This document shows, piece after piece, positions 1 through 11,932 of a stretch of DNA of 11,932 nt; positions within the stretch are counted from its first letter, which is position 1; each line of letters begins with the position of its first letter. The stretch comes from Deltaproteobacteria bacterium (GTDB taxonomy: Bacteria > Desulfobacterota > Desulfobaccia > Desulfobaccales > 0-14-0-80-60-11): NCBI GenBank assembly GCA_023381945.1, contig JAMCQY010000029.1:1-11932 (forward strand), written 5' to 3'. A model generated the notes under the pieces. The model searched no databases, had not been told where the DNA came from, and saw only the letters and a list, made by a program, of their open reading frames with translations. The translations under genes were made by a program, and so were the position numbers.

Positions 1-465
1 CCGGCAGACGATATTAAATTTCCCGAAGTCGGCAAGGTCTATTATCAGGATCACCTCTGCATGGCCGTGATGAGGCAGGGACGCAAGGCCTCTTTTGAGG
101 CGCCGGTGGATGGCGCGGTGGAGGCCATCAATCCCAAGGTTCGCCAGCAGCCCAAGCTGATTCACGACGATCCTTATGGGGAAGGCTGGCTCTTTACGGT
201 CAGGCCCGACAATCTCCAACGCAATTTGGAAAAACTATTTTCCGGTGAGGCCAATGTCACCTGGATTGATGAAGAGTCTCACCGCTTAATGAACCTGATG
301 GACGCCAAGGCCGGCTTAACCCTGCCGGACGGCGGCACCGTCATCGATGACTTGTATGGCCACTATCCGGACTTAGGCTGGCGGCCGCTGGTCCAGGAGT
401 TTTTCCTGCAAAACCTGACCAGAAAGGGTTTTCTACCCGTGGCGAAGTGGAAGAAAGCCGGATGA
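1..465 (+). CDS. GcvH-like (biotinyl/lipoyl-fold) protein, C-terminal part, truncated by window edge
   Basis: The frame is open from base 1, so the start lies upstream; 154 residues are visible. Residues 25-62 match the central part of glycine-cleavage H proteins: an R-Q-G-R-K-A turn (K29 is the candidate lipoyl lysine), then A-P-V-D-G, an asparagine, and the hallmark D-P-Y-G-E-G-W-L. Genuine H proteins carry a glutamate three residues before the lysine and have two more residues between lysine and proline; neither is present here. A C-terminal extension of about 75 residues (E-S-H-R-L, L-P-D-G-G, I-D-D, L-G-W, L-V-Q-E-F) is absent from ordinary H proteins. The next gene encodes a paralogue that aligns without gaps and is roughly half identical, so this is a tandem duplication. 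A glycine-cleavage role is not supported, since no gcvT or gcvP is nearby. A swinging-arm carrier or a non-lipoylated regulatory protein are both possible. Confidence 0.8.
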   Translation, partial: PADDIKFPEVGKVYYQDHLCMAVMRQGRKASFEAPVDGAVEAINPKVRQQPKLIHDDPYGEGWLFTVRPDNLQRNLEKLFSGEANVTWIDEESHRLMNLMDAKAGLTLPDGGTVIDDLYGHYPDLGWRPLVQEFFLQNLTRKGFLPVAKWKKAG

Positions 466-547: not shown

Positions 548-1429
548 ATGGCAAAACAATTCATCGAGGGCAAAAAGCCGTGTATCTGGATGGAAGCCGG
601 GGTCATCGACTTCAAGATATGCGATCGTGATTTCGATTGTTTGTCTTGCGATTTCGACCGGGTCATGAGCGAAACTGCCGAGCAGCATCTGGCCAGTCGC
701 CAGAAAGTTAAACGTCCGCCAGGCAAGAAGGCCGTCACGGTCCCCTGGGAAGGAAAAATGCGGCGACACTTTAAGGGGCGGCAGAAGTGCCAGCTCATGC
801 AAACCCGGCATTGTCACCAGTGTTCTTTTGACGAACTTCTGGAGGACCAGTTTGATTTCTTTCTGGCCCCGGAAAGGCCCAAGGTCCAGGAGGTCTTCGG
901 CATTACGGTGCCGACCTCCAACTTCCTCCACCGGGGTCATACCTGGGTGGCCCTGGAGAATGCCGGGAGGGTCCGTGTCGGTTTAGACGACTTTTCCCAG
1001 AAGGTCTTAGGCCCTCCCGACAAAATCAAGTTCCCCGGCCTGGGGCAGAAAATTCACGCCGATGAGGCGGCTCTGACTCTATCCCGCCAAGGGAAAAAGG
1101 CCGCAGTTCTGGCCCCCCTGAATGGCGTCATCGAGGCGGTGAATCCCAAAGTTCGGCAAAATCCTGGTTTGACTCATGCCGACCCTTACGGCGAAGGCTG
1201 GCTGTTGGTCGTCTCCCCTACCAAGCTCAAACCGGACCTGGAAAAAATGCTTTTTGGCCAGTGCAATGTCGCCTGGATGGACCATGAGTCCCACCGCCTG
1301 CTGGCCATGCTGGAAACTGCGGCGGGGGTGACGCTGCCCTCCGGGGGAGTGATCATCGATGACGTCTTCGGCACCTTTCCGCAGTTGGGCTGGAAACGCC
1401 TGGTGCAGGAGTTTCTCCATAGCGCTTGA
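548..1429 (+). CDS. Cysteine-rich N-terminal domain fused to a GcvH-like domain with C-terminal extension
   Basis: The protein has 293 residues, about twice a normal glycine-cleavage H protein (near 130). Residues 1-100 are cysteine-rich: C12, C25, C31 and C34 (C-x2-C), then C81, C89 and C92 (H-C-x2-C). The layout could bind zinc or an Fe-S cluster. Residues about 119-225 are the H-protein fold: H-T-W-V at 131-134, a V-G-L-D-D-F strand, the lysine turn G-K-K-A-A at 182-186, and D-P-Y-G-E-G-W-L at 212-219. K184 aligns with K29 of the visible upstream paralogue and is the candidate lipoyl site. As there, the acidic residue normally at -3 is missing and the loop to the next proline is two residues shorter. 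Residues 226-293 are the extension shared with the paralogue. The function is unknown. A redox- or metal-linked carrier or adaptor is my inference. The assignment as a real gene is secure. Confidence 0.88.
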   Translation: MAKQFIEGKKPCIWMEAGVIDFKICDRDFDCLSCDFDRVMSETAEQHLASRQKVKRPPGKKAVTVPWEGKMRRHFKGRQKCQLMQTRHCHQCSFDELLEDQFDFFLAPERPKVQEVFGITVPTSNFLHRGHTWVALENAGRVRVGLDDFSQKVLGPPDKIKFPGLGQKIHADEAALTLSRQGKKAAVLAPLNGVIEAVNPKVRQNPGLTHADPYGEGWLLVVSPTKLKPDLEKMLFGQCNVAWMDHESHRLLAMLETAAGVTLPSGGVIIDDVFGTFPQLGWKRLVQEFLHSA

Positions 1430-1585: not shown

Positions 1586-2932
1586 TTAATGGGCTAGGCC
1601 GTATTTCTTGATTTTCTCGTAGAGCGTGGAACGGTTGATGCGCAAAACCCTGGCGACATTGGAAAGGTTGCCGCCTTTGGTTGCCAGGAGTTGGGCGATA
1701 TGTTGGCGTTCCAATTCTTCCAAGGATAACTCGGCCAATTCCATGGCCTCAGGTGCAGTGCCAAAAGGCAGGTCAGCCCGTTTGATCTGCCGGCCTTTCC
1801 CCACCACGACGGCCCGTTCTATGGCGTTTTCCAGCTCCCGGACATTTCCCGGCCAGGGATATTGTTGCAGCGCCTCCATGGCTTTCGGATGGATGGAGTC
1901 GATCTTCTTTTTAGTCTCAGTGGCGTAACGTCTCATGAAATGTTGGGCCAGTAAGGGAATATCTTCCGGCCGCTCCCGCAAAGGCGGCACTTGCAGGTGG
2001 ATAACGTTCAGCCGATAGAACAGGTCTTGTCGAAAGTTTTTGCGTCGAATGGCCTCAGTAAGATCCTGGTTAGTAGCGGCGATAACCCGAAAATCACTGC
2101 GTAACGGTACAGTTCCCCCCACCCGGGTGAATTCCCGGGTCTCCAGGACCCGGAGCAGGTCGATCTGCATCTTCATGGAGATATCGCCCACCTCATCCAG
2201 GAAGAGGGTCCCGGCGTGCGCCATTTCCAGTCGGCCTTTCTTAGTATACTTGGCGTCGGTGAAGGCGCCTTTTTCATGTCCAAAGAGCTCGCTTTCCAGG
2301 AGCTGTTCCGTAAAGGCCCCGCAGTTAATGGCAATAAAGGGGGCATAACACCGGGGACTCTGCGCATGAATGGCCCGGGCCACCAGTTCCTTGCCCGTAC
2401 CGGTTTCCCCGGTGATCAAGACCGTGGCGTCACTCTGCGCCACATCCACAATGGTCTCAAAAAGCTTCACCATGACCGGTGATTGGCCCACCAGGTTTTC
2501 AAAGCGGGTAATAGTCGCCAGCCTCTCTTTCAAAATCTGGTTCTCCATTGCCAGTTGTTGCAACTGCACCAGTTTTTCGATGGTAAAGCTGAGTTCCTCC
2601 AGTTCGAAGGGCTTGAGTAAATAGTCGTAAGCCCCCAGCTTGATGGCTTCCACGGCATCATGGATGTCGCCGTGCGCCGTCATCATGAGAATATTCGTCT
2701 CGACTTCGCTTTCCTTGAGTTTTTTGAGCAGGGTCAGGCCGTCCATCTCCGGCATTTTGACATCGATGAGCATGATGTCAGCCCGCTTTTCCCGGATCTT
2801 GGCCAGTGCCGCGACCCCGTCTTCGGCGGTTTCCACCTCATAACCGCCCCTTTTCAGCCAGCCGCTCAAAGATTCACGGATGCTCAGTTCGTCATCCACT
2901 ACCAGGATGCTGATCTTGTTATGCGGCAGCAT
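1586..2932 (-). CDS. NtrC-family sigma-54-dependent response regulator (REC-AAA+-Fis HTH)
   Basis: This is a 448-residue DNA-binding response regulator that should drive sigma-54 RNA polymerase from remote sites. The receiver domain (about 6-120) has acidic residues D13 and D14, phospho-acceptor D57, T85 and K107. The AAA+ domain (about 145-375) has Walker A G-E-T-G-T-G-K-E at 175-182, Walker B G-T-L-F-L-D-E at 241-247 and the R-Q-D-L-F-Y-R-L-N stretch at 301-309. The sigma-54 contact loop reads G-A-F-T-D-A (222-227) instead of the consensus G-A-F-T-G-A. A Fis-type helix-turn-helix occupies about 405-445. An upstream in-frame extension to 3037 exists, but ATG 2932 is preferred. It has GGGAG six bases upstream (2939-2943), it begins the receiver fold properly, and it overlaps the kinase gene by only 14 bases, which indicates translational coupling. 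The cognate partner is the kinase encoded just upstream. Likely targets include the palindromes upstream of its own operon. Confidence 0.95.
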   Translation of the reverse strand: MLPHNKISILVVDDELSIRESLSGWLKRGGYEVETAEDGVAALAKIREKRADIMLIDVKMPEMDGLTLLKKLKESEVETNILMMTAHGDIHDAVEAIKLGAYDYLLKPFELEELSFTIEKLVQLQQLAMENQILKERLATITRFENLVGQSPVMVKLFETIVDVAQSDATVLITGETGTGKELVARAIHAQSPRCYAPFIAINCGAFTEQLLESELFGHEKGAFTDAKYTKKGRLEMAHAGTLFLDEVGDISMKMQIDLLRVLETREFTRVGGTVPLRSDFRVIAATNQDLTEAIRRKNFRQDLFYRLNVIHLQVPPLRERPEDIPLLAQHFMRRYATETKKKIDSIHPKAMEALQQYPWPGNVRELENAIERAVVVGKGRQIKRADLPFGTAPEAMELAELSLEELERQHIAQLLATKGGNLSNVARVLRINRSTLYEKIKKYGLAH

Positions 2933-5192
2933 TTTCTTCTCCCGGTTTACAGGCGGGCAGGCGAATAGTAAACGAAGTCCCATGCCCCGGCACACTGTCC
3001 ACTTTGATGGAACCCTTGTGGTCCCGGATAATGCCATAAACCACGGAGAGCCCCAGGCCTACGCCGGAGCAGGTCTTTTTCGTGGTGAAGAACGGTTCGA
3101 AGATCTGGGAAAGATTTTCTTTGGGAATGCCTTTTCCGGTGTCGGAGACTTTCACCATCACTTGACGGGATCGGGAATTCCTGGATTCCAGGGTGAGAGT
3201 GCCTCCTTGCGGCATCGCGTCCTGGGCGTTCAGGAAGAGATTCAAAAAGGTCTGTTTCATCTGTCCCTTATCCGCCATGACCGGGGGCAGGTCCGGAGCC
3301 AGCTGGCGGTTCACGTTGATGCCTTGCAGCCGCATCTGGTATCCGGTAAGGGACAAGGTTTCCGTCAGGATCGCGTTGACGTCCACCGGCTCGAATTCCG
3401 GCTTGGTCTTGCGAGAAAAAGCCAGGAGATTGGCCACGGTTCGGCTGACCCGGGAGGTCTCACTATGGATCATGGTGAGATAACGGCGGATATCAGCCAA
3501 ATCTGCCTCACCCAGGGCCCCGTCATCCAGCATGCTTTCCATCAATTTGACGAAATTGAGGATGCCGGTGAGCGGGTTATTAATTTCATGCACCACGCTG
3601 GCAGACAACTTCCCCAAAGAAGCCATTTTATCCTCATGGAGCATCCTGGTGCGGGCGTTGATCTCCTGGGTGATATCCCTGGATAGATCAACTACTTGGT
3701 GAATACGCCCCTCCTCATCATACAAAGGGTGGCAGACCACATGATAATAACGCTCCCGGCCGTCCTTGTCGAAGTGCACATGCGTGGCCGAAGCGGCCTT
3801 GCCCTTGGCCACCGCCTCTTTTAAAGGGCAGGGATGATCAGGGATGGTGCAAGGCTCATTCAAGTGGTGCGATACTTCATAGCAGTGTCTGCCCACCACT
3901 TCTTCCCATTTTAGACCCACCATCTCCAGCAAAGCCCGGTTAACCTCAATAATTTTATAGTCCAGGTCGATCACCATCATGTGATCCACAATGCCGTTGA
4001 CAATGGTCTCAAGAAAGGCTTTACCCTTTTTTGCCCTCTCTTCGGAACTTTTCAGCGCTTCTTCCAGGTTCATGCGAGGAGTGATATCTTTGATAACCTC
4101 GATAACTCTTTTTTTGGTGCCTTCCGGCGGACATAGAGGCGACATGGTGATTTCATCATATCGCAGGGTGCCGTCGGGATTGGGAAAGCCTTGCAAACTC
4201 TGGACGGTCTCACATTTCTCCAGAACCGTCGGCAAGGGGCAGGGCATGCCTTTTTTGTCGCAGGGTTCATCAAACTGATGGAACACTGCATAACAAGGTT
4301 TGCCGATGACCTCATCCGCTTGTTTTTGGAAGCGATTCAGAAACGGCAGGTTGGCTTCTTCCACTAAATAATTTGGGCGCAATACCAACACCGGATCAGG
4401 GAGATGGTCAAAAATTCTCTGAAAACGGTTGCGCTGGCCGGCCAGCTTGATTTCGCTCTCAACCTTGCTGCGCAAGCGGTCTTCATCCCGGTGCAGGAGA
4501 TCCCAGAAGAGGCGCGCCTTTATATGGTCGATGATCTGGGTGTGCGGGCCTTTCTGTTGGATGATTCTTTCCCGCACTTCCGGGTCCCCGGTGAGTTCCA
4601 GAATGAGATCCGGGGTCGATTCCGAAATGGGAGTTAATTCGGTAAAGGTTGGTATCCCCAATTCTTTGGCCAGCCTGACACCCTGGGCCTGCGTATTGGG
4701 ATCAGCCACCCAGAGGATTTCGATTCTCCGCCGATAACGCGGCTCTCCGGCAATAAGTTTGAGAACCTCATGCCCGCCTTTACCTCCCCCTACAATGCCG
4801 ATTCTCAAAGGCGCGGATTCTTGAACGGGGGTAAGATCCATGGAGACGAGGTCCCAGAAGTCCTCCCAGGAAAGCGGACGATCGACATTGAGGATCATCA
4901 TTCTCTCTGGCCGCTGTTCGTCCAATTTTAAGGAGACTTCCGGGTGGCCGGTGGCGTTGACGATAATGTCCAATTCGGGGAGCTGGAATAAGTCGGTAAA
5001 ATCCACCGTGACCAGAAGATTATGACGGTAAGCATAGAGGACGCCGGGAGCTTCGGGATTCAAGTCAGCCAATCCCACTATTCGCAAGAGCTGGTCATCC
5101 CGGCGGAGAGGCACCAGGGCCTCCAGGATGGCCATGCCTTGACGGCCCCCGCCCACCAGGGCCAGATTATAGAACTGCTTGCCGGGACTCAT
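2919..5192 (-). CDS. Histidine kinase with two N-terminal Rossmann-like domains and two Cys-bearing PAS domains
   Basis: The protein has 757 residues and no obvious membrane segment, so it is probably a cytosolic sensor kinase. From the N terminus: a nucleotide-binding-like fold with a glycine-rich loop at 12-19 (L-V-G-G-G-R-Q-G); a second with G-I-V-G-G-G-K-G-G at 132-140; PAS1 (about 256-375); PAS2 (about 393-512); a HisKA domain with phospho-acceptor H535 in V-V-H-E-I-N-N-P; and an ATPase domain with N655, D-T-G-K-G-I at 684-689 and G-V-G-L-G-L-S at 710-716. Both PAS domains hold three cysteines at identical spacing (C300/C311/C318 and C437/C448/C455, i.e. C-x10-C-x6-C ending in C-P-L). 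ATG 5192 is chosen because GGCGGAG ends six bases upstream; a TTG at 5207 in the same frame is less likely. The gene overlaps the downstream regulator. The Rossmann part suggests sensing of NAD(P)(H) or a similar ligand, which is inference. The kinase assignment is firm. Confidence 0.93.
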   Translation of the reverse strand: MSPGKQFYNLALVGGGRQGMAILEALVPLRRDDQLLRIVGLADLNPEAPGVLYAYRHNLLVTVDFTDLFQLPELDIIVNATGHPEVSLKLDEQRPERMMILNVDRPLSWEDFWDLVSMDLTPVQESAPLRIGIVGGGKGGHEVLKLIAGEPRYRRRIEILWVADPNTQAQGVRLAKELGIPTFTELTPISESTPDLILELTGDPEVRERIIQQKGPHTQIIDHIKARLFWDLLHRDEDRLRSKVESEIKLAGQRNRFQRIFDHLPDPVLVLRPNYLVEEANLPFLNRFQKQADEVIGKPCYAVFHQFDEPCDKKGMPCPLPTVLEKCETVQSLQGFPNPDGTLRYDEITMSPLCPPEGTKKRVIEVIKDITPRMNLEEALKSSEERAKKGKAFLETIVNGIVDHMMVIDLDYKIIEVNRALLEMVGLKWEEVVGRHCYEVSHHLNEPCTIPDHPCPLKEAVAKGKAASATHVHFDKDGRERYYHVVCHPLYDEEGRIHQVVDLSRDITQEINARTRMLHEDKMASLGKLSASVVHEINNPLTGILNFVKLMESMLDDGALGEADLADIRRYLTMIHSETSRVSRTVANLLAFSRKTKPEFEPVDVNAILTETLSLTGYQMRLQGINVNRQLAPDLPPVMADKGQMKQTFLNLFLNAQDAMPQGGTLTLESRNSRSRQVMVKVSDTGKGIPKENLSQIFEPFFTTKKTCSGVGLGLSVVYGIIRDHKGSIKVDSVPGHGTSFTIRLPACKPGEENAAA

Positions 5193-5205: not shown

Positions 5206-5370
5206 AAGGAGTGTGTTGCTAGATTTCCTAACAGGCTTCTCCATTGCAGCAGGTTTGTTTACATAATAACATGGTCCCTGAAAGTTTTCATGCTTCCACC
5301 CGTTGCTTCCCTTCCCGCTTTGATGACCTTTGACACTGGAATCCCGGCGAGAGGGTCCATTTCATATAAA

Positions 5371-5385
5371 GCAAAGGATGTGCCA
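5371..5385 (-). promoter_or_regulatory. Sigma-54 (-24/-12) promoter of the kinase-regulator operon
   Basis: Read on the - strand, the sequence is TGGCACATCCTTTGC. It has the GG and GC dinucleotides at the fixed sigma-54 spacing and matches TGGCAC...TTGC at every conserved position but one (A for G after TGGCAC). It points toward the sensor kinase. Transcription would start near 5360, giving a leader of about 170 bases before ATG 5192. The operon encodes a sigma-54 activator, which makes autoregulation likely. Confidence 0.8.
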
Positions 5386-5466: not shown

Positions 5467-5483
5467 TGTCGGATAATCCAACA
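5467..5483. promoter_or_regulatory. Promoter-proximal 17-bp palindrome, candidate activator (UAS) site
   Basis: TGTCGGA-TAA-TCCAACA has seven-base arms with one mismatch and a three-base spacer. Its centre is about 115 bases upstream of the predicted sigma-54 start. It is a near copy of the perfect palindrome at 5543-5559. Fis-type activators of the NtrC family bind such paired dyads as enhancers. Confidence 0.65.
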
Positions 5484-5542: not shown

Positions 5543-5559
5543 TGTTGGAAAATCCAACA
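5543..5559. promoter_or_regulatory. Distal 17-bp perfect palindrome, candidate activator (UAS) site
   Basis: TGTTGGA-AAA-TCCAACA is a perfect dyad with seven-base arms. Its centre is 76 bases from that of the proximal copy and about 190 bases upstream of the predicted start, the usual range for sigma-54 enhancers. Only the third arm base and the spacer differ between the two copies. Confidence 0.68.
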
Positions 5560-5634: not shown

Positions 5635-5695
5635 GTCATTCTGAGCGAAGCGAAGAATCTAATTCTTCACTCCGCCATGCTCCGTTCAGAATGAC
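5635..5695. repeat. Dispersed palindromic repeat (GTCATTCTGA type)
   Basis: Outer arms GTCATTCTGA (5635-5644) and TCAGAATGAC (5686-5695) are perfect inverted copies. Inside, GAAGAAT (5652-5658) and ATTCTTC (5662-5668) form a second perfect stem with a three-base loop. The wording beginning GTCATTCTGAGCGAAGCGAAG is, to my knowledge, a dispersed intergenic repeat in many bacterial genomes. It lies between the enhancer sites and the 3' end of the secreted-protein gene. Confidence 0.7.
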
Positions 5696-5804
5696 ACCTC
5701 AAATAATGCCTGTTTGAGCGCAACTCGTATGAAACAATTTCTCAACTTTCCAACGCGATGTCTTTATTCAGATTGGCATCGGGGGAAACCATTATGCCCA
5801 TAGC

Positions 5805-7184
5805 TTACGGTTTGGGGGTGAAGTAGAACATCATATCGAAATGTTTACCCAGCTTATGGCGTTCCGGGACTCCCGGGACCCAGCCGGAGCCGGAGTTCTG
5901 CTCCACCCAACCGTCCTGGAACTCCCACCCCCGGAAGCCGTAAGCGGAACCCTTCATCATGGGCAGAAAGTTATAAGGATCGCCCGCCGGGGCGCTCACC
6001 ACCAGATGGTAAGTTGAACCATTTTTCAGGGTGCGCGGGCTGCTGAAGGCATAAGTGACCCAATTTATGGCAGTTTCTTCTCCCATTGGCGCCAATGCGG
6101 CAGGGATGGCCCCCTCCTCAATGAGAGTGCCATCACCCTGCTCCAACCTGATCGTTAAACGGCCGGGATTGGCGCCGTTGGCTACCCAGCAGGCCACCGA
6201 CATCTTGCTGACGATCTGGTCTCCGCCGGTGACGGTGAAGGTTTCCCTCATCCGGGTATTGCCTTGGATTTGGCAGGGAGTGGTGGGGTAGACCTGTAAA
6301 TAGGCCGCGCCCAGGGAATGGCCGTCCTTGAAGTAGAGGGTAAAGATCGGGGTGTCGTGCTTGACCCGTTCATCCCATTTCCAGACCCCGGATACCTTGC
6401 GGACCAGGCAGTAGTCGGTGTCGCTGACTCCTGTCTGAATGGGACTGAGCAACTGGGCGACACACATATTATTGATGTCGAACCAGTTATTATAAGGATC
6501 GGGGGAGGCGTTGGAGACCACGAGGTGGTAGAGCTGGCCGGCGGTTAGCGAGGCCGGGGCATTGAAGCGCAGCCGGTCATGAATCCACGAGTAGCCGTTG
6601 TGGCGCACCCTGCCGTAAAGGTTATCAAGCTGCAGAAACGCCAGAACCTTGCCGGAGGGGAAGTGGCCGGCGGTGCCGTCGTCGGTTTGTAATTCAACCC
6701 GCAGGATACCGGCGTCCCCCATGGCATAGCCCGCTCCCTGGACCTGGAGAAAGAACTGAACCGCCTCCGCCTGGCCGGTATGGTCGGCCCGGAAACGGTA
6801 GGACATGGCCGTGCCGTGACATTTGGGGTGGGTGCCGATGTTCATGTTGTCCAGGGAAAACCAGCGCCAGGGCGCCCCATAGACTTTGACCGTATGAGAG
6901 ATGGGAGGAGCCGGGGATGGATTGGGGGGATTCTGTCCACGAGCAGCAACGACGAGGCTTGGCCGGACGTTCAAGGCGCCTGACGAAATCGGCCCCGCTT
7001 GGGAGGCCGGGAGCTGCCTGATAAAGGGCCTTCCGGTGGCGTCGCAGTCTATCCCAGGCAGGTTGACATTACCCTGGTAGAGGGGCGAAAGGGCTGGGAC
7101 AGGCGCTGAGTGGTCCGTCTGCGACAGGCCGGGGGCCACGGTCAGGAGCAACAGGGCGGCCAGGATAATCAACTGGGTTCTCAC
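5805..7184 (-). CDS. Secreted protein of unknown function with a duplicated beta-rich module
   Basis: GTG 7184 is chosen because AGAGGAGG (7193-7200) ends eight bases upstream and the product then begins with a signal peptide. The upstream in-frame extension to a TTG at 7295 has no such site. The 459-residue product has a charged start, a hydrophobic core at about 5-18 (L-I-I-L-A-A-L-L-L-L) and likely cleavage after about residue 22. A proline-rich linker at 85-96 precedes two related modules, about 125-286 and 308-456. Each contains a T-x-x-x-Y-H-L-V-V-S segment (214-224 and 387-397) followed by D-P-Y-N (229-232 and 402-405), an aromatic stretch and a closing strand of the F-x-L-Y-F or M-F-Y-F kind. 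The pattern resembles extracellular beta-sandwich or lectin-like domains. I see no catalytic motif and do not recognise the family. It is probably exported across the inner membrane; whether it stays periplasmic or leaves the cell is unclear. Confidence 0.85.
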   Translation of the reverse strand: MRTQLIILAALLLLTVAPGLSQTDHSAPVPALSPLYQGNVNLPGIDCDATGRPFIRQLPASQAGPISSGALNVRPSLVVAARGQNPPNPSPAPPISHTVKVYGAPWRWFSLDNMNIGTHPKCHGTAMSYRFRADHTGQAEAVQFFLQVQGAGYAMGDAGILRVELQTDDGTAGHFPSGKVLAFLQLDNLYGRVRHNGYSWIHDRLRFNAPASLTAGQLYHLVVSNASPDPYNNWFDINNMCVAQLLSPIQTGVSDTDYCLVRKVSGVWKWDERVKHDTPIFTLYFKDGHSLGAAYLQVYPTTPCQIQGNTRMRETFTVTGGDQIVSKMSVACWVANGANPGRLTIRLEQGDGTLIEEGAIPAALAPMGEETAINWVTYAFSSPRTLKNGSTYHLVVSAPAGDPYNFLPMMKGSAYGFRGWEFQDGWVEQNSGSGWVPGVPERHKLGKHFDMMFYFTPKP

Positions 7185-7192
7185 AGCGGCGA

Positions 7193-7200
7193 CCTCCTCT
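7193..7200 (-). promoter_or_regulatory. Strong ribosome binding site fixing a GTG start
   Basis: On the - strand AGAGGAGG is followed by eight bases and GTG at 7184. This is the best ribosome binding site in the window and sets the secreted protein's start at its signal peptide. Confidence 0.75.
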
Positions 7201-7280
7201 GGGTAAGCAAGATGCACATTTGATTTTACAAGATAAGCAGTTGGGAAGGCTTTTGCCACCTGGGTCGAGCAATGGAACCC

Positions 7281-7318
7281 TATAGCGTTTGCCAAAAGTT
7301 ATAGCGTTTGCCAAAAGT
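7281..7318. repeat. 19-bp tandem direct repeat, left arm of a nested inverted repeat
   Basis: TATAGCGTTTGCCAAAAGT occurs twice head to tail (7281-7299 and 7300-7318) with no mismatch. Inverted near-copies lie at 7409-7426 and 7434-7452. Confidence 0.85.
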
Positions 7319-7640: not shown

Positions 7641-9602
7641 TCAACTCTGCTTCGATTCGAGGGCGTACTTAGGGTAACATATTGATTTTATTGGTTTATT
7701 TCTCTCCCCCCCCCCCCCCCCCCCCCGAGAAACATCATTCTTGGGTAATGCGAAATAGAAGGTGGCGCCATCGTTGACCCTCCCTTCGGCCCAGACACGG
7801 CCGCCGTGGCGAAGGATGATGCGCTGAACGATGGCCAGACCGATGCCGGTGCCGTCATATTCTTCCAGGCTATGCAGGCGCTGAAAAGCGCCGAAAATTT
7901 TTCCGCGGTAACGTTCATCAAAGCCGATGCCGTTATCTTTGACGTAGAAGATGGTTTCCGTTCCCTCGGCCCGGCCGCCCACCTCAATGATTGCGGTCTC
8001 CTTGGACCTGGTATATTTTATGGCGTTGTCGAGGTGGTTGGTCATGACCTGATAGAGCAAGGAATGGTCGCCATAGGCAGGAGGCAGGTCCTTGATGATT
8101 AATTGCAAATTCCTTTGGGGTACTTGAGCCTTCAGGCGCTGGAAGACTTGACCGGCCATGCCGCCAAGATCGATGACGGATTTTTTCAGCGGTTGCCGGC
8201 CCAAACGAGCCAGGGCCAGCAGGTCATCGATGAGATGGTGCATCATTTTGGTATTCTCGCAGATGACCCTGAGGAGCCGCAGCGCTTCGGCATCGAGTTT
8301 TTGGGCATGTTCGCCCATCAACATCCGGGAGAACCCTTCGATGGCGCGAATGGGGGCCTTGAGGTCATGCGACACCGAGTAAGAGAAGGATTCCAGCTCC
8401 TTGTTGACGGCTTCCAATTCGGAGGTGCGCTCCCGGACCCGCTGTTCCAGCTCTTCATTGATTACTTGGAGTTCTTCTTCCGTCTCCTGCCGCCTTCCAA
8501 CTTCTTCCTCCAACTGATCCACGGCCATTTTAAGTTCGGCGGTGCGCTCTTCCACCCGCCATTCCAATTCATCATGGGCCTGCATGAGGGCGGCTTCGCC
8601 GCGCTTGCGCATCAGGGCTTCAACAATGGCAAAAGACAGGCTCTCCAAAGATTCCTGGTCAGAAGGGTCAAAACCTCCTTCTTTGTTCCCCAGGGCGATC
8701 AGGCCGATGGTCTGCCCGATATATTTCAGAGGCGCTCCCAGAAAGGAGGTGACGGGGGGGCAGTCCGGATGGTTGGCGACGCTGCCGGAATGGCCTGCAA
8801 GATTATTGGCGATCAGGGATCGGCCCTCGGCGATGATTTTTTTGAAGAAGCCCCGGAGGTGCTGCAAGTTGCCGGGCAAGCCGGTCCCGGCCGCCTCCGA
8901 CATCGGGCAATCCGACCAGTCGCTGAAGGCAATTTCCAGCCTGCGAGCTTGATTCACCTTGCCCATCAAACCCCCCTGGCTTTCCGTCAGGCCTATGGCC
9001 ACCTTAAGTGCGGTCCGGGCCAGTTCTTCTTCGGTCTCGCAGGTCAGGGCCTCGTGAAAGACGCGATTGATGCCCAGCAAGATTTGATTCTTCTTCTGCA
9101 GGCGGTCTTCGCTCCGTTGCAGGGCCTTGACCTGCGCGATGAGCTTGTCCACCAGCAATTGCAGGTGCTTCTCCTCGAAGGCCGGGGGCAGAAGCGAAGC
9201 AGCCGGGGTCCGCTTGCTTTTCAGGACTTCAGCCACACTCTCCAGGATTCTTTCCGGTTCCGTGGGTTTGGAGAGAATGCATGCGACACCGAGTTCGCCG
9301 GCCAGGTCCAGGGCCTCACGCTCATTGAATACTGCGGTATAAAAGAGCACGCCCGTTCCGGAGACGGCGGGGTCGGCGCGCAATTGCTTGACCAGTTGAT
9401 AGCCGTCCATCTTGGGCAGAAGCACATCAGAAATGACCAGGTCCGGATGTTCCGACCGGATCAGGGCCAAGGCCCGGGGGCCGTCAGCAGCTTGCAAAAC
9501 CCGGTACTTGGCGTGCTCCAGCAAGTCGGTCAGCATTTCCCGGTCCATTTCCCGATCTTCGACTATCAGTATGGTGGTCTGGCCCTTCCCGTTCTGTTTC
9601 AC
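7641..9602 (-). CDS. Hybrid sensor histidine kinase (REC-GAF-coiled coil-HisKA-HATPase) with a G21 tract
   Basis: This is a 653-residue cytosolic signalling protein. The N-terminal receiver (about 10-130) has D59 in I-S-D-V-L-L-P and K112. A GAF domain follows (about 180-335), then a Glu-rich coiled coil (about 335-400). The HisKA domain has H412 in V-S-H-D-L-K-A-P, the bacteriophytochrome-like subclass. The ATPase domain has N526, D-N-G-I-G-F at 556-561 and G-T-G-I-G-L-A at 584-590. The fold ends near residue 620. Next comes a six-glycine run encoded by 21 consecutive G (C at 7706-7726 on the + strand), then a basic 21-residue tail. GTG 9602 is chosen, with GTGGGG (9611-9616) eight bases upstream; a TTG one codon earlier is possible. 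An N-terminal receiver suggests that the kinase takes phosphate or a signal from another component. The CheY-like protein and GAF protein encoded upstream are obvious partners. Confidence 0.92.
   Translation of the reverse strand: MKQNGKGQTTILIVEDREMDREMLTDLLEHAKYRVLQAADGPRALALIRSEHPDLVISDVLLPKMDGYQLVKQLRADPAVSGTGVLFYTAVFNEREALDLAGELGVACILSKPTEPERILESVAEVLKSKRTPAASLLPPAFEEKHLQLLVDKLIAQVKALQRSEDRLQKKNQILLGINRVFHEALTCETEEELARTALKVAIGLTESQGGLMGKVNQARRLEIAFSDWSDCPMSEAAGTGLPGNLQHLRGFFKKIIAEGRSLIANNLAGHSGSVANHPDCPPVTSFLGAPLKYIGQTIGLIALGNKEGGFDPSDQESLESLSFAIVEALMRKRGEAALMQAHDELEWRVEERTAELKMAVDQLEEEVGRRQETEEELQVINEELEQRVRERTSELEAVNKELESFSYSVSHDLKAPIRAIEGFSRMLMGEHAQKLDAEALRLLRVICENTKMMHHLIDDLLALARLGRQPLKKSVIDLGGMAGQVFQRLKAQVPQRNLQLIIKDLPPAYGDHSLLYQVMTNHLDNAIKYTRSKETAIIEVGGRAEGTETIFYVKDNGIGFDERYRGKIFGAFQRLHSLEEYDGTGIGLAIVQRIILRHGGRVWAEGRVNDGATFYFALPKNDVSRGGGGGGERNKPIKSICYPKYALESKQS
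7706..7726. repeat. 21-base mononucleotide C/G tract inside the kinase gene
   Basis: Twenty-one C on the + strand are read as G on the coding strand and flanked by TCTCT and GAGA. In the present length the frame runs to the stop at 7641. One G fewer gives the tail R-E-I-N-Q and stop; one more gives G-E-K and stop. Tracts this long are prone to slippage in replication and sequencing alike. Confidence 0.9.
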
Positions 9603-9625
9603 CAAAATTACCCCACTATTTCACC

Positions 9626-9832: not shown

Positions 9833-10201
9833 TCATTTTTTCATGAAGGCTTCGACCTGTTTTTGGAAAACCTCAGGTGTAATCGGTTTGTCGATATAGC
9901 CGTCAAACCCGGCGGACAACACTTTTTCACGGTCGCCGACCATAGCCAGGGCGGTCACCGCTATTAGAGGAATGCGGCTAAGCATGGGGTCACGCTTGAG
10001 GTAGGCAGCCAGTTCATAACCGTCCATTCCCGGCATCTGCACATCACAGATGATCAGGTCAAGTTTTTCCTGGCGCACCAAATCAATTCCCCTGACACCA
10101 TTACGCGCGGTCAGGACGGTGTAGCCGAAAGCCTCCAGAAGATCGGTCATGAGTTCCAGGTTAAAAGGGTTATCTTCAATGACCAGGATTCGTTTTGCCA
10201 T
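9833..10201 (-). CDS. Stand-alone CheY/DivK-like response regulator
   Basis: The protein is a single receiver domain of 122 residues, the normal size for CheY-type regulators, with no output domain. It has the complete phosphorylation site: E9 and D10, phospho-acceptor D53 in I-C-D-V-Q-M-P-G-M-D-G, T83 and K105 in D-K-P. The N-P-F-N-L-E segment after D10 and the Q-M-P-G-M-D-G loop resemble the DivK and hybrid-kinase receiver type more than chemotaxis CheY. ATG 10201 lies inside the preceding gene, overlapping it by 26 bases, with only a weak ribosome site (GGAA about 12 bases upstream), so translation is probably coupled. It likely acts by protein-protein contact as a shuttle in a phosphorelay. 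The hybrid kinase downstream is the nearest phosphodonor. Confidence 0.95.
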   Translation of the reverse strand: MAKRILVIEDNPFNLELMTDLLEAFGYTVLTARNGVRGIDLVRQEKLDLIICDVQMPGMDGYELAAYLKRDPMLSRIPLIAVTALAMVGDREKVLSAGFDGYIDKPITPEVFQKQVEAFMKK

Positions 10202-11932
10202 CGCTCAGATCAGTTCCTTCCCGGGCCTTTAAAGCCATTAAATCTTTGAGGAGCGCCTCCTTTTCTTCCAGCGATTTTTTTATGCAGTCCTCGGCCTTCT
10301 TCATTTCCATGACCAGGCGAGCGTTCTCCAGCGATATGGCGGCCTGGGAAGTCAGCAATTCGGTCATTTGGGTTTTTTCCCAAGTAAAGACCGATTCCGA
10401 CAGGCGGTTTTCCAGGTAGAGGATTCCTATCATCTTCGATTGTTTGATCACCGGCAGGCAGAGAACGGAACGCAGTTGCATGATCTGAACCTCGGGATTA
10501 TCCTTGAAGGCGCCTTCTTGGGAGGCGTTGTTTAGGATCAGGCGTTCTCCGGTGCGGTAGACGTAGCGGACAATTGCCTTACAGATATCAACGGCGTCTT
10601 CCAGTTTTTGATTTAAAGTTAAGGCTTCCTTGTCGGCGACGTGACTCTCGGCCCGCACCAGCAAATTGCCCTCTTCATCGACCATCAGCAGATAGCCGTG
10701 CTGGGCGCCAGAGCTTTCCACCACCACATTCATGATCTTTTTCATCAGAGCGTTCTGCTCGATCTCGGCGGAAATGGCCAGGGACGACTTCATGAGGTAA
10801 TCCAGGTCGAGATCGGGCAAAGTATAAGGCGGAACTGACTCCAAATCAATCTTCGCATAAGAGACAATTTCTTCCTCGAGATACTCCGGATATTTCTCAA
10901 GGAGACTTAATTCTTTGCGTTCGGCCCGGCATTTCCGGTAGAGACGCCCGGCCTCGGCAAAGTATACCTTTTCGGGGAACCAGCCGGCTGCCAGGAGCAA
11001 CTCACCGAGGCATTCGTGAAGATGCCCTTCCAGGAAGGTAAACTTTTGTTGATGAGCCAGGTTGATGGCATCGAGGTAAAGGCTCCGGGCCTCTTTAAAA
11101 TTGCCCAGGACCCTCTCCTTTTCGGCATAGAGAAAGGCCAGGTAGGGCTTTAAAAGAGGGCCCAGCCCGGTCCAGGTTTCGACTTTTTGGATAATCGGCC
11201 GGATTTCGGCTAGGAGTGCTTCTTTATTTCTAAATCCCACGCCCCGCTCAAATTGTTTGAGGGCATTTAAGACCCGGAAGATGTGCCATTGCCTTTTCAG
11301 CACGTTGTCAGTAAGGCCGGACAGGTACTTCTTAACCCCTACCAGGTAGCGTTCAGCATCGTCGTGCTCGCCAAAGTAGTAATGCACCAGTGCCATGTGG
11401 ACATAATAACTACCGGCGGAGGCGATGTGATTATCGCGCTCCCACTGCGCCAGTTTTTCTTTTATGGGCACCGGAGCATAATCCCTTTTCATGGGGCCGA
11501 TCCAGCCCGCCTGCATGGCTTCAGCCAGCCCTACGGAGAAGGCCAGATGGTACCTGTTGGAGAATTGCAGACATTCCTTGGCTACGTCTTCGATAATCGA
11601 CAGGTCCACCCCCTGGACCTGGAGATTCCACATCAGGGGGCCGTAAGATAGGCCCGCATTGTAAAGATCGCCGCAGTTCTTGCCACTCTGGATCGACTTA
11701 AGGCAATAATCCACAATATCCTTCGGATGGCTCCTGGAGTGCATGTTGCACCAGACGATGCCGTTCATGCCCCGGGTGGCGCCGAAGGTGTTGGGGTATT
11801 TGGCAGACAGGTCCCGGGCCAGGTCTTCGTAGTTGTAGGCCTGCTGGAATTCCCCCTGCTCCCCGAGCTGGAGCCCCATGATGCTGAAGGAATAGATTAC
11901 CGACTCATCCATGCCGCCGGCCAGGCAGTGCT
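10176..11932 (-). CDS. C-terminal part of a large TPR-like/GAF multisensor protein, truncated by window edge
   Basis: The frame stays open to base 11932, so the N terminus lies outside; 584 residues are visible. Counting from the internal ATG at 11912, residues 1-340 are alpha-helical and TPR-like (for example A-Y-L-x-F-L-Y-A and G-N-F-K-E-A-R-S-L-Y). They resemble the region that follows the ATPase module in Ser/Thr-kinase/AAA multisensor proteins. Residues about 371-384 hold the linker before a GAF domain (about 385-533, with S-V-L-C-L-P-V and G-I-L-Y-L-E-N). A coiled coil (535-562) follows and the protein stops at 578. Related proteins often continue from a similar S-L-E-E-K-E-x-L-L-K segment into a histidine-kinase domain, which is missing here. 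The gene overlaps the CheY-like gene by 26 bases. That upstream kinase and ATPase domains exist is inference from family architecture. The GAF assignment is firm. Confidence 0.85.
   Translation of the reverse strand, partial: HCLAGGMDESVIYSFSIMGLQLGEQGEFQQAYNYEDLARDLSAKYPNTFGATRGMNGIVWCNMHSRSHPKDIVDYCLKSIQSGKNCGDLYNAGLSYGPLMWNLQVQGVDLSIIEDVAKECLQFSNRYHLAFSVGLAEAMQAGWIGPMKRDYAPVPIKEKLAQWERDNHIASAGSYYVHMALVHYYFGEHDDAERYLVGVKKYLSGLTDNVLKRQWHIFRVLNALKQFERGVGFRNKEALLAEIRPIIQKVETWTGLGPLLKPYLAFLYAEKERVLGNFKEARSLYLDAINLAHQQKFTFLEGHLHECLGELLLAAGWFPEKVYFAEAGRLYRKCRAERKELSLLEKYPEYLEEEIVSYAKIDLESVPPYTLPDLDLDYLMKSSLAISAEIEQNALMKKIMNVVVESSGAQHGYLLMVDEEGNLLVRAESHVADKEALTLNQKLEDAVDICKAIVRYVYRTGERLILNNASQEGAFKDNPEVQIMQLRSVLCLPVIKQSKMIGILYLENRLSESVFTWEKTQMTELLTSQAAISLENARLVMEMKKAEDCIKKSLEEKEALLKDLMALKAREGTDLSDGKTNPGH

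Follow-up and report, generated by a model that had tools for sequence, protein, structure and literature searches.

A histidine kinase family with a dehydrogenase-type Rossmann input that may read the NAD(H) pool

The subject of this report is a sensor histidine kinase encoded in a stretch of 11,932 nucleotides from a deltaproteobacterium of the Desulfobacterota (contig JAMCQY010000029.1; "the window" below). Its sensor end consists of two tandem dehydrogenase-type Rossmann domains, D1 and D2, which are followed by two PAS domains and the kinase core (Table 1). An earlier note, made from the bare sequence, had proposed that these domains sense NAD(P)(H) or a related metabolite and are possibly non-catalytic. 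What the computation shows is the domains and their relatedness, their distribution among lineages, the order of the genes, and elements that resemble promoters; from these we infer a ligand, a movement, a regulon, and a physiological signal: the protein is most likely a dinucleotide-responsive kinase controlling a redox regulon, and direct sensing of NAD(H) by the Rossmann pair is the best single explanation, one that we favor by a modest balance of probability. NAD(H) is more likely than NADP(H) because an acidic residue, which in Rossmann domains goes with a preference for NAD, ends strand 2 in both domains.

What marks the two domains in the sequence? The first glycine-rich loop, LVGGGRQG, occupies residues 12 to 19 (window positions 5159-5136) and is followed by VNATG at residues 78 to 82 (4961-4947). 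The second loop, GIVGGGKGG, lies at residues 132 to 140 (4799-4773), with LELTG at residues 198 to 202 (4601-4587). D1 and D2 align at 31% identity over 104 positions (E 1e-6, a single comparison), and the glycine-loop pattern that they share is, judged from sequence, more than chance. These loops, the motifs after them, and their tandem order ahead of the PAS domains had been singled out in the earlier note, and they are conserved in an alignment of 106 rows, which holds proteins of at least 700 residues, all two-copy, with shorter matches left out. There, G14, G16, and G19 are about 90% conserved (the start is absent from some rows), D43 is at about 100%, and G135, G137, D164, E199-G202, and the Asp-His pair D222-H223 are all at 100%.

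A broader set of 108 D1, 114 D2, and 163 single-copy domains shows how the two copies have diverged; the single-copy group includes the four copies of locus L046 and three cut doubles, P0113 to P0115. Across the family, D1 carries a strict GxGRQG, with all three loop glycines in about 95% of domains and an Asp ending strand 2. Where ELTG has E, it mostly has N, and its Asp-His motif is gone. In D2, E-L-T-G and D-H both stand at 100%. GxG and the strand-2 Asp are present almost without exception in both, the Asp in 100% of rows. Single-copy domains have E, D, and H at the ELTG and Asp-His positions in 97%, 92%, and 88% of cases, respectively, and their strand 2 ends in D (71%), C (17%), or S (7%). 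The third loop glycine, found in both window domains, is G, A, or C in D2 family-wide and usually C in single-copy domains.

Structure prediction and a fold search, which the earlier note had suggested as checks, bear out its view of the sensor end. In the AlphaFold2 model of the window kinase (mean predicted local distance difference test score [pLDDT] of 78.3), D1 and D2 both alternate strands and helices; the Rossmann fold, a GxGxxG loop after strand 1, and the acidic strand-2 end (D43 and D164) are present in each. By fold, the nearest match is to acylating acetaldehyde dehydrogenase. Additionally, an orthologue in locus L100, 68% identical overall to the window kinase, scores 45.0 bits against a cut-off of 24 for a Pfam NAD-binding family. 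DmpF-type acylating acetaldehyde dehydrogenase, homoserine dehydrogenase, and the Gfo/Idh/MocA enzymes (PF03447 and PF01408) share with the window domains the Rossmann fold, the glycine loop, and the acidic strand-2 end, though overall sequence likeness is weak. Unlike those dehydrogenases, the window domains have no catalytic or substrate domain that could be seen, are fused to a kinase, and carry the Asp-His motif and a long output helix after strand 5.

Could the protein simply be an intact dehydrogenase fused to a kinase? That candidate was rejected: neither Pfam nor AlphaFold2 revealed a catalytic domain, in keeping with the non-catalytic character proposed earlier, and no full enzyme was among the 44 proteins listed by a search with residues 1 to 250, its candidates restricted to 0.55 to 1.75 times 250 residues. 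In the Pfam scan no catalytic domain follows the Rossmann pair, and the last helix of D2 leads to PAS1. The 44 proteins comprise parts of kinases from the window's family, kinases of other kinds, and fragments without a name. Two of them, P0200 ("predicted dinucleotide-utilizing enzyme") and P0209 ("predicted dehydrogenase"), have two domain copies each; Pfam found no catalytic domain in P0200, and both are read as cut kinases.

How might binding be communicated to the kinase core? The most informative protein is P0192, a minimal kinase of 357 residues in which a Rossmann domain is the sole sensor and the kinase core comes directly after it. Its AlphaFold2 model (mean pLDDT 91.4, predicted template modeling score [pTM] 0.71) has a single predicted helix, residues 103 to 161, scoring 78 to 94 per block along its length, that begins right after D102 and passes through the phospho-acceptor H144. 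The model thus places the Asp-His motif at the head of an output helix. The equivalent helix of the window kinase leads towards PAS1 in its AlphaFold2 model. Three minimal Rossmann-HisKA proteins (L070:5953-7032 and those of L072 and L080) have ATP-binding motifs that look degraded by eye and are possibly inactive kinases.

In the mechanism that we propose, the tandem, catalytically dead domains would bind a dinucleotide cofactor, and ligand in D2 would shift the long helix beginning with the invariant Asp-His pair. The shift would then pass via the two PAS domains, each with a cysteine triad, to the phospho-acceptor helix. These triads (C300, C311, and C318 in PAS1, the last just past the core, window 4239-4295; C437, C448, and C455 in PAS2, 3828-3884; both minus strand) have the spacing C-x10-C-x6-C and are found unchanged in 106 of 106 rows, a pattern suggestive of chemistry with a metal, an Fe-S cluster, or thiols. 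D1 would be the older duplicate, and since its output motif is lost with the cofactor loop retained, D1 probably tunes D2. The kinase would signal to the NtrC-type regulator encoded by the overlapping gene. The targets of this regulator, reached by way of inverted repeats and sigma-54 promoters, would be its own operon and GcvH-like genes, joined in some relatives by HdrA-like and formate-dehydrogenase genes.

The earlier note had called dehydrogenase-type folds rare as kinase inputs, a statement that does not hold for this phylum. The domain is found in 113 of 395 sampled genomes from the phylum of the L007 genome, and it occurs with many outputs; in the phylum of the L067 genome it is in 5 of 282, L067's own included. 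A genome scan for the domain confirmed 119 of 190 stretches, of which 80 loci were kept. These carry 85 domain-bearing open reading frames (ORFs), some cut by contig ends, with outputs that comprise HisKA-HATPase with or without PAS, REC hybrids, and sigma-54 activators (8 ORFs). Their taxon labels are mostly Desulfobacterota or Deltaproteobacteria, with several Proteobacteria only and one Myxococcales. HisKA_3-type kinases with one copy also occur, two of them named Nitrospirales. One further protein, L009:5899-6762, has a single Rossmann domain and a C-terminal tail with CSGCKKIRDDNGYW, for which there was no Pfam match.

Adjacent double copies occur in at least 11 of the 395 genomes (at least 12 loci) among the matches listed, and on 198 collected proteins the domain profile found two copies in 114 and one in the other 84. 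When did the second copy arise? In a midpoint-rooted tree of 86 of the 385 domain rows (110 columns), D2 forms one clade (100/100). D1 forms one group on a long branch, except that P0115, a cut double labeled as single, falls among D1. The forks that set D2 among the single-copy domains are weak. The simplest history suggested by the tree has the domain duplicated once, long ago, or another copy captured, and then fast change in D1; as far as this tree goes, the duplication is one lineage's version of the domain. L046:5921-8812 has four tandem Rossmann copies, then PAS, HisKA, and a cut HATPase_c. These copies group together in the tree and by that placement are a separate, more recent expansion.

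What does the kinase control? Genomic context was compared across the window and 12 double-domain loci from 11 genomes (13 loci, 194,485 bases). A regulator gene follows the kinase gene in 13 of 13, split into two ORFs in L098 and cut by a contig end in L097; in the window its ATG overlaps the end of the kinase gene by 14 bases. GcvH-like genes are present in 10 of the 13. A gene for a peptidase M54 (archaemetzincin) comes next in eight, the window not among them, for example directly after the regulator gene in L098 (4404-4964). Both gene types were assigned by clustering, the GcvH-like also by profile; Pfam was applied to three of the GcvH-like proteins and to a single M54 protein. L096, L099, and L100, whose kinases are 89 to 91% identical, share a one-strand order: GcvH-like, HdrA-like, Fe-S protein, formate dehydrogenase, kinase, regulator. 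The gene that we take to be HdrA-like encodes Fe-S and pyridine-nucleotide-oxidoreductase domains (Pfam). What we take to be the formate dehydrogenase is encoded by two molybdopterin-oxidoreductase ORFs; the in-frame TGA that separates them, as seen in L099, is probably a selenocysteine codon.

Promoter-like elements may connect the kinase operon to the GcvH-like genes. Perfect matches to the sigma-54 consensus number 7 in the 13 loci versus 0.15 expected: one lies before the window kinase, L098 has one at a GcvH-like gene, and the remaining five are found at GcvH-like genes in L096, L099, and L100. Four of the six GcvH-like sites lie inside the longest ORF reading, at or before the point where GcvH likeness begins; the true starts must therefore be further downstream. 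Inverted repeats like the two upstream of the window kinase, with at most two mismatches, number 5 versus 0.45 expected, two of these being the window sites that supplied the pattern. Of the remaining three, one precedes the kinase of L093 by about 200 bases, and two belong to L098, where sigma-54-like sites lie 160 and 171 bases away. Repeats with three mismatches (9 versus 7.3 expected) are not significant alone, though seven of the nine have, at a distance of 85 to 175 bases, a sigma-54-like site with no more than one mismatch. Background counts came from shuffles keeping base composition only, and a separate resampling used dinucleotide frequencies.

Several findings weigh against this picture. 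At its pTM of 0.47, the AlphaFold2 model of the window kinase does not fix the placement of D1 relative to D2. The window protein falls below the Pfam cut-off of 24, with 17.9 bits for GFO_IDH_MocA and 13.9 bits for NAD_binding_3 (same cut-off) at the N terminus of the full protein and 21.8 bits for residues 1 to 250. The third loop glycine is gone from many D2 and most single-copy domains, and strand 2 ends in C or S instead of Asp in about 24% of the single-copy group, so that one common ligand does not seem assured. The same loosening of the loop and replacement of the Asp speak for a rival in which the cleft holds some other small molecule (for instance CoA or an acyl-CoA, an aldehyde, a semialdehyde, or another kind of nucleotide) and the kinase reports a carbon metabolite, not the pyridine-nucleotide pool. 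So does the nearest fold match, as acylating acetaldehyde dehydrogenase uses CoA as well as NAD. We consider this unlikely: CoA handling in such enzymes involves the catalytic domain, which Pfam does not find in the window kinase, and GxG and the strand-2 Asp are kept almost without exception in the D1 and D2 of the window's lineage.

The same list of difficulties includes a paralogous kinase in L093 that has no Rossmann pair and yet sits among the same kinds of genes (regulator, M54, and GcvH-like); the circuit can therefore run on PAS input alone. Might the Rossmann pair, then, be an empty scaffold for dimerization or for docking of a partner protein (for instance a GcvH-like protein, a subunit of Hdr, or a dehydrogenase), with the cysteine-rich PAS domains doing the sensing? 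The paralogue's neighbors, the invariance of all six PAS cysteines, and the location of the Asp-His and ARLFW motifs at the output helix would all fit. For docking alone, however, the glycine loop and strand-2 Asp would be unneeded, and both copies retain them; minimal kinases with a Rossmann domain and without PAS also exist. Of the explanations weighed here, we find this the least probable.

Finally, there are difficulties with the circuit. Among the 80 domain-profile loci, many on short contigs, a GcvH-like gene is near in one (L008) and an M54 gene in none; the circuit thus seems tied to the double-domain lineage and not to the domain itself. In L008:7546-10436, the sole such locus of the 80, a single-copy Rossmann kinase near the GcvH-like gene is followed by a regulator gene. 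The five sigma-54 sites in the near-copy loci L096, L099, and L100 amount to two orthologous sites, which leaves about four independent cases, not seven. In a further rival reading, the GcvH-like genes would not be under this regulator, and their sigma-54 sites would be used by a different activator: gene proximity and shared motifs are correlations, the window's own two sites supplied the repeat pattern, and repeats at GcvH-like genes often differ from it by three mismatches, the class close to its expected count. Set against this, repeats with at most two mismatches outside the window number 3 versus 0.45 expected in the whole set, and six of the seven perfect sigma-54 sites are at GcvH-like genes. 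We regard such a misassigned regulon as a real possibility that falls well short of probable.

How does direct NAD(H) sensing by a kinase compare with known sensors? Rex and CtBP are Rossmann proteins that sense NADH, the former a one-component repressor and the latter a co-repressor. Like them, the window kinase is proposed to read the NAD(H) pool directly with a fold of the dehydrogenase type; unlike the window domains, neither Rex nor CtBP is a kinase input. KdpD is a histidine kinase whose USP domain binds cyclic di-AMP and thus likewise has a nucleotide-binding alpha/beta fold as cytoplasmic input, although that is a USP domain with a binding mode described as not found in Rossmann-like lineages (PMC8214093), where the window kinase has two dehydrogenase-type domains. 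Redox sensing by two-component systems is mostly regarded as indirect, through heme, FAD, Fe-S clusters, or disulfides. These routes are the ones named in passages of a 2021 review of kinase sensing (PMC8534201); the terms NADH, NAD+, and Rossmann are absent from its main text by term search. A limited literature search, with most subscription journals outside it, found no description of a Rossmann-input family.

A recurrent dehydrogenase-type input domain would, if true, give two-component systems a direct redox route, and bacteria that carry it may read the cellular redox state directly. More tentatively, with confidence well below even, we propose a phylum-wide, non-catalytic dehydrogenase receptor for the pyridine-nucleotide pool, of which the duplicated copies here would read two ligands or redox states and, with the cysteine-rich PAS domains, set a sigma-54 regulon that takes in GcvH-like, HdrA-like, and formate-dehydrogenase genes. 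Through these same genes, the gene context offers a candidate readout from Desulfobacterota energy metabolism, and the minimal proteins of about 357 residues are simple enough for purification and assay.

The remainder of the kinase is of HisKA type, and we read the protein as cytoplasmic. The start is the ATG at 5192, with GGAG six bases 5' of it, and the stop is at 2919; the TTG at 5207 is a less likely alternative start. Pfam identifies two PAS domains, HisKA, and HATPase_c, the last two above cut-off. The H, G1, and G2 boxes are conserved in the 106-row alignment; the N-box, NLFLNAQDAM, was identified by eye, the search pattern for it giving no match. AtoS/ZraS and AtoC/ZraR-type systems are among the best NCBIfam matches of the kinase and regulator, all below curated cut-offs, and the input end differs from that of AtoS/ZraS-type kinases.

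Table 1. Features of the kinase locus, in window positions
Feature	Positions	Strand	Basis
Sensor histidine kinase, 757 residues: D1, D2, PAS, PAS, HisKA, HATPase_c	2919..5192	minus	ORF, Pfam, AlphaFold2
Rossmann-type domain D1, residues 8-118: strict GxGRQG loop, D43 ending strand 2, NATG after strand 4, D-H output motif lost	4839..5171	minus	Alignments, AlphaFold2
Rossmann-type domain D2, residues 129-234: GGGKGG loop, D164, ELTG, invariant D222-H223	4491..4808	minus	Alignments, AlphaFold2
Predicted long helix from H223, residues 223-249, D2 towards PAS1; conserved ARLFW motif near helix start	4446..4526	minus	AlphaFold2
PAS1 core, residues 255-312	4257..4430	minus	Pfam, 106-row alignment
PAS2, residues 393-506	3675..4016	minus	Pfam, 106-row alignment
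HisKA, residues 526-596: H-box HEINNP, phospho-acceptor H535	3405..3617	minus	Pfam, 106-row alignment
HATPase_c catalytic domain, residues 641-747: G1 and G2 boxes retained	2952..3272	minus	Pfam, 106-row alignment
NtrC-type response regulator: receiver, sigma-54 interaction, Fis-type helix-turn-helix	1586..2932	minus	Pfam (all three parts found)
Sigma-54-type promoter TGGCAC-ATCCT-TTGCT upstream of kinase, perfect site	5370..5385	minus	Motif scan
Inverted repeat TGTTGGA-TTA-TCCGACA, candidate activator site	5467..5483	minus	Motif scan
Inverted repeat TGTTGGA-TTT-TCCAACA, candidate activator site	5543..5559	minus	Motif scan
GcvH-like protein, convergent with kinase-regulator pair; candidate target type; upstream end of gene array beyond window	548..1429	plus	Clustering, profile
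Second GcvH-like gene, cut by window edge	1..465	plus	Clustering, profile

Other features of the window lie upstream of the kinase gene, all on the minus strand. At about 5635-5700, between the kinase and the upstream gene, the arms CATTCTGA...TCAGAATGAC form what by eye is a palindromic-repeat-like element. An ORF of 496 residues at 5805-7295 had no Pfam match at E 1e-3. A second signaling cluster comprises a receiver-GAF-HisKA kinase (7641-9605), a short protein that is receiver-like by eye (9833-10201), and a GAF protein (10176-11912).

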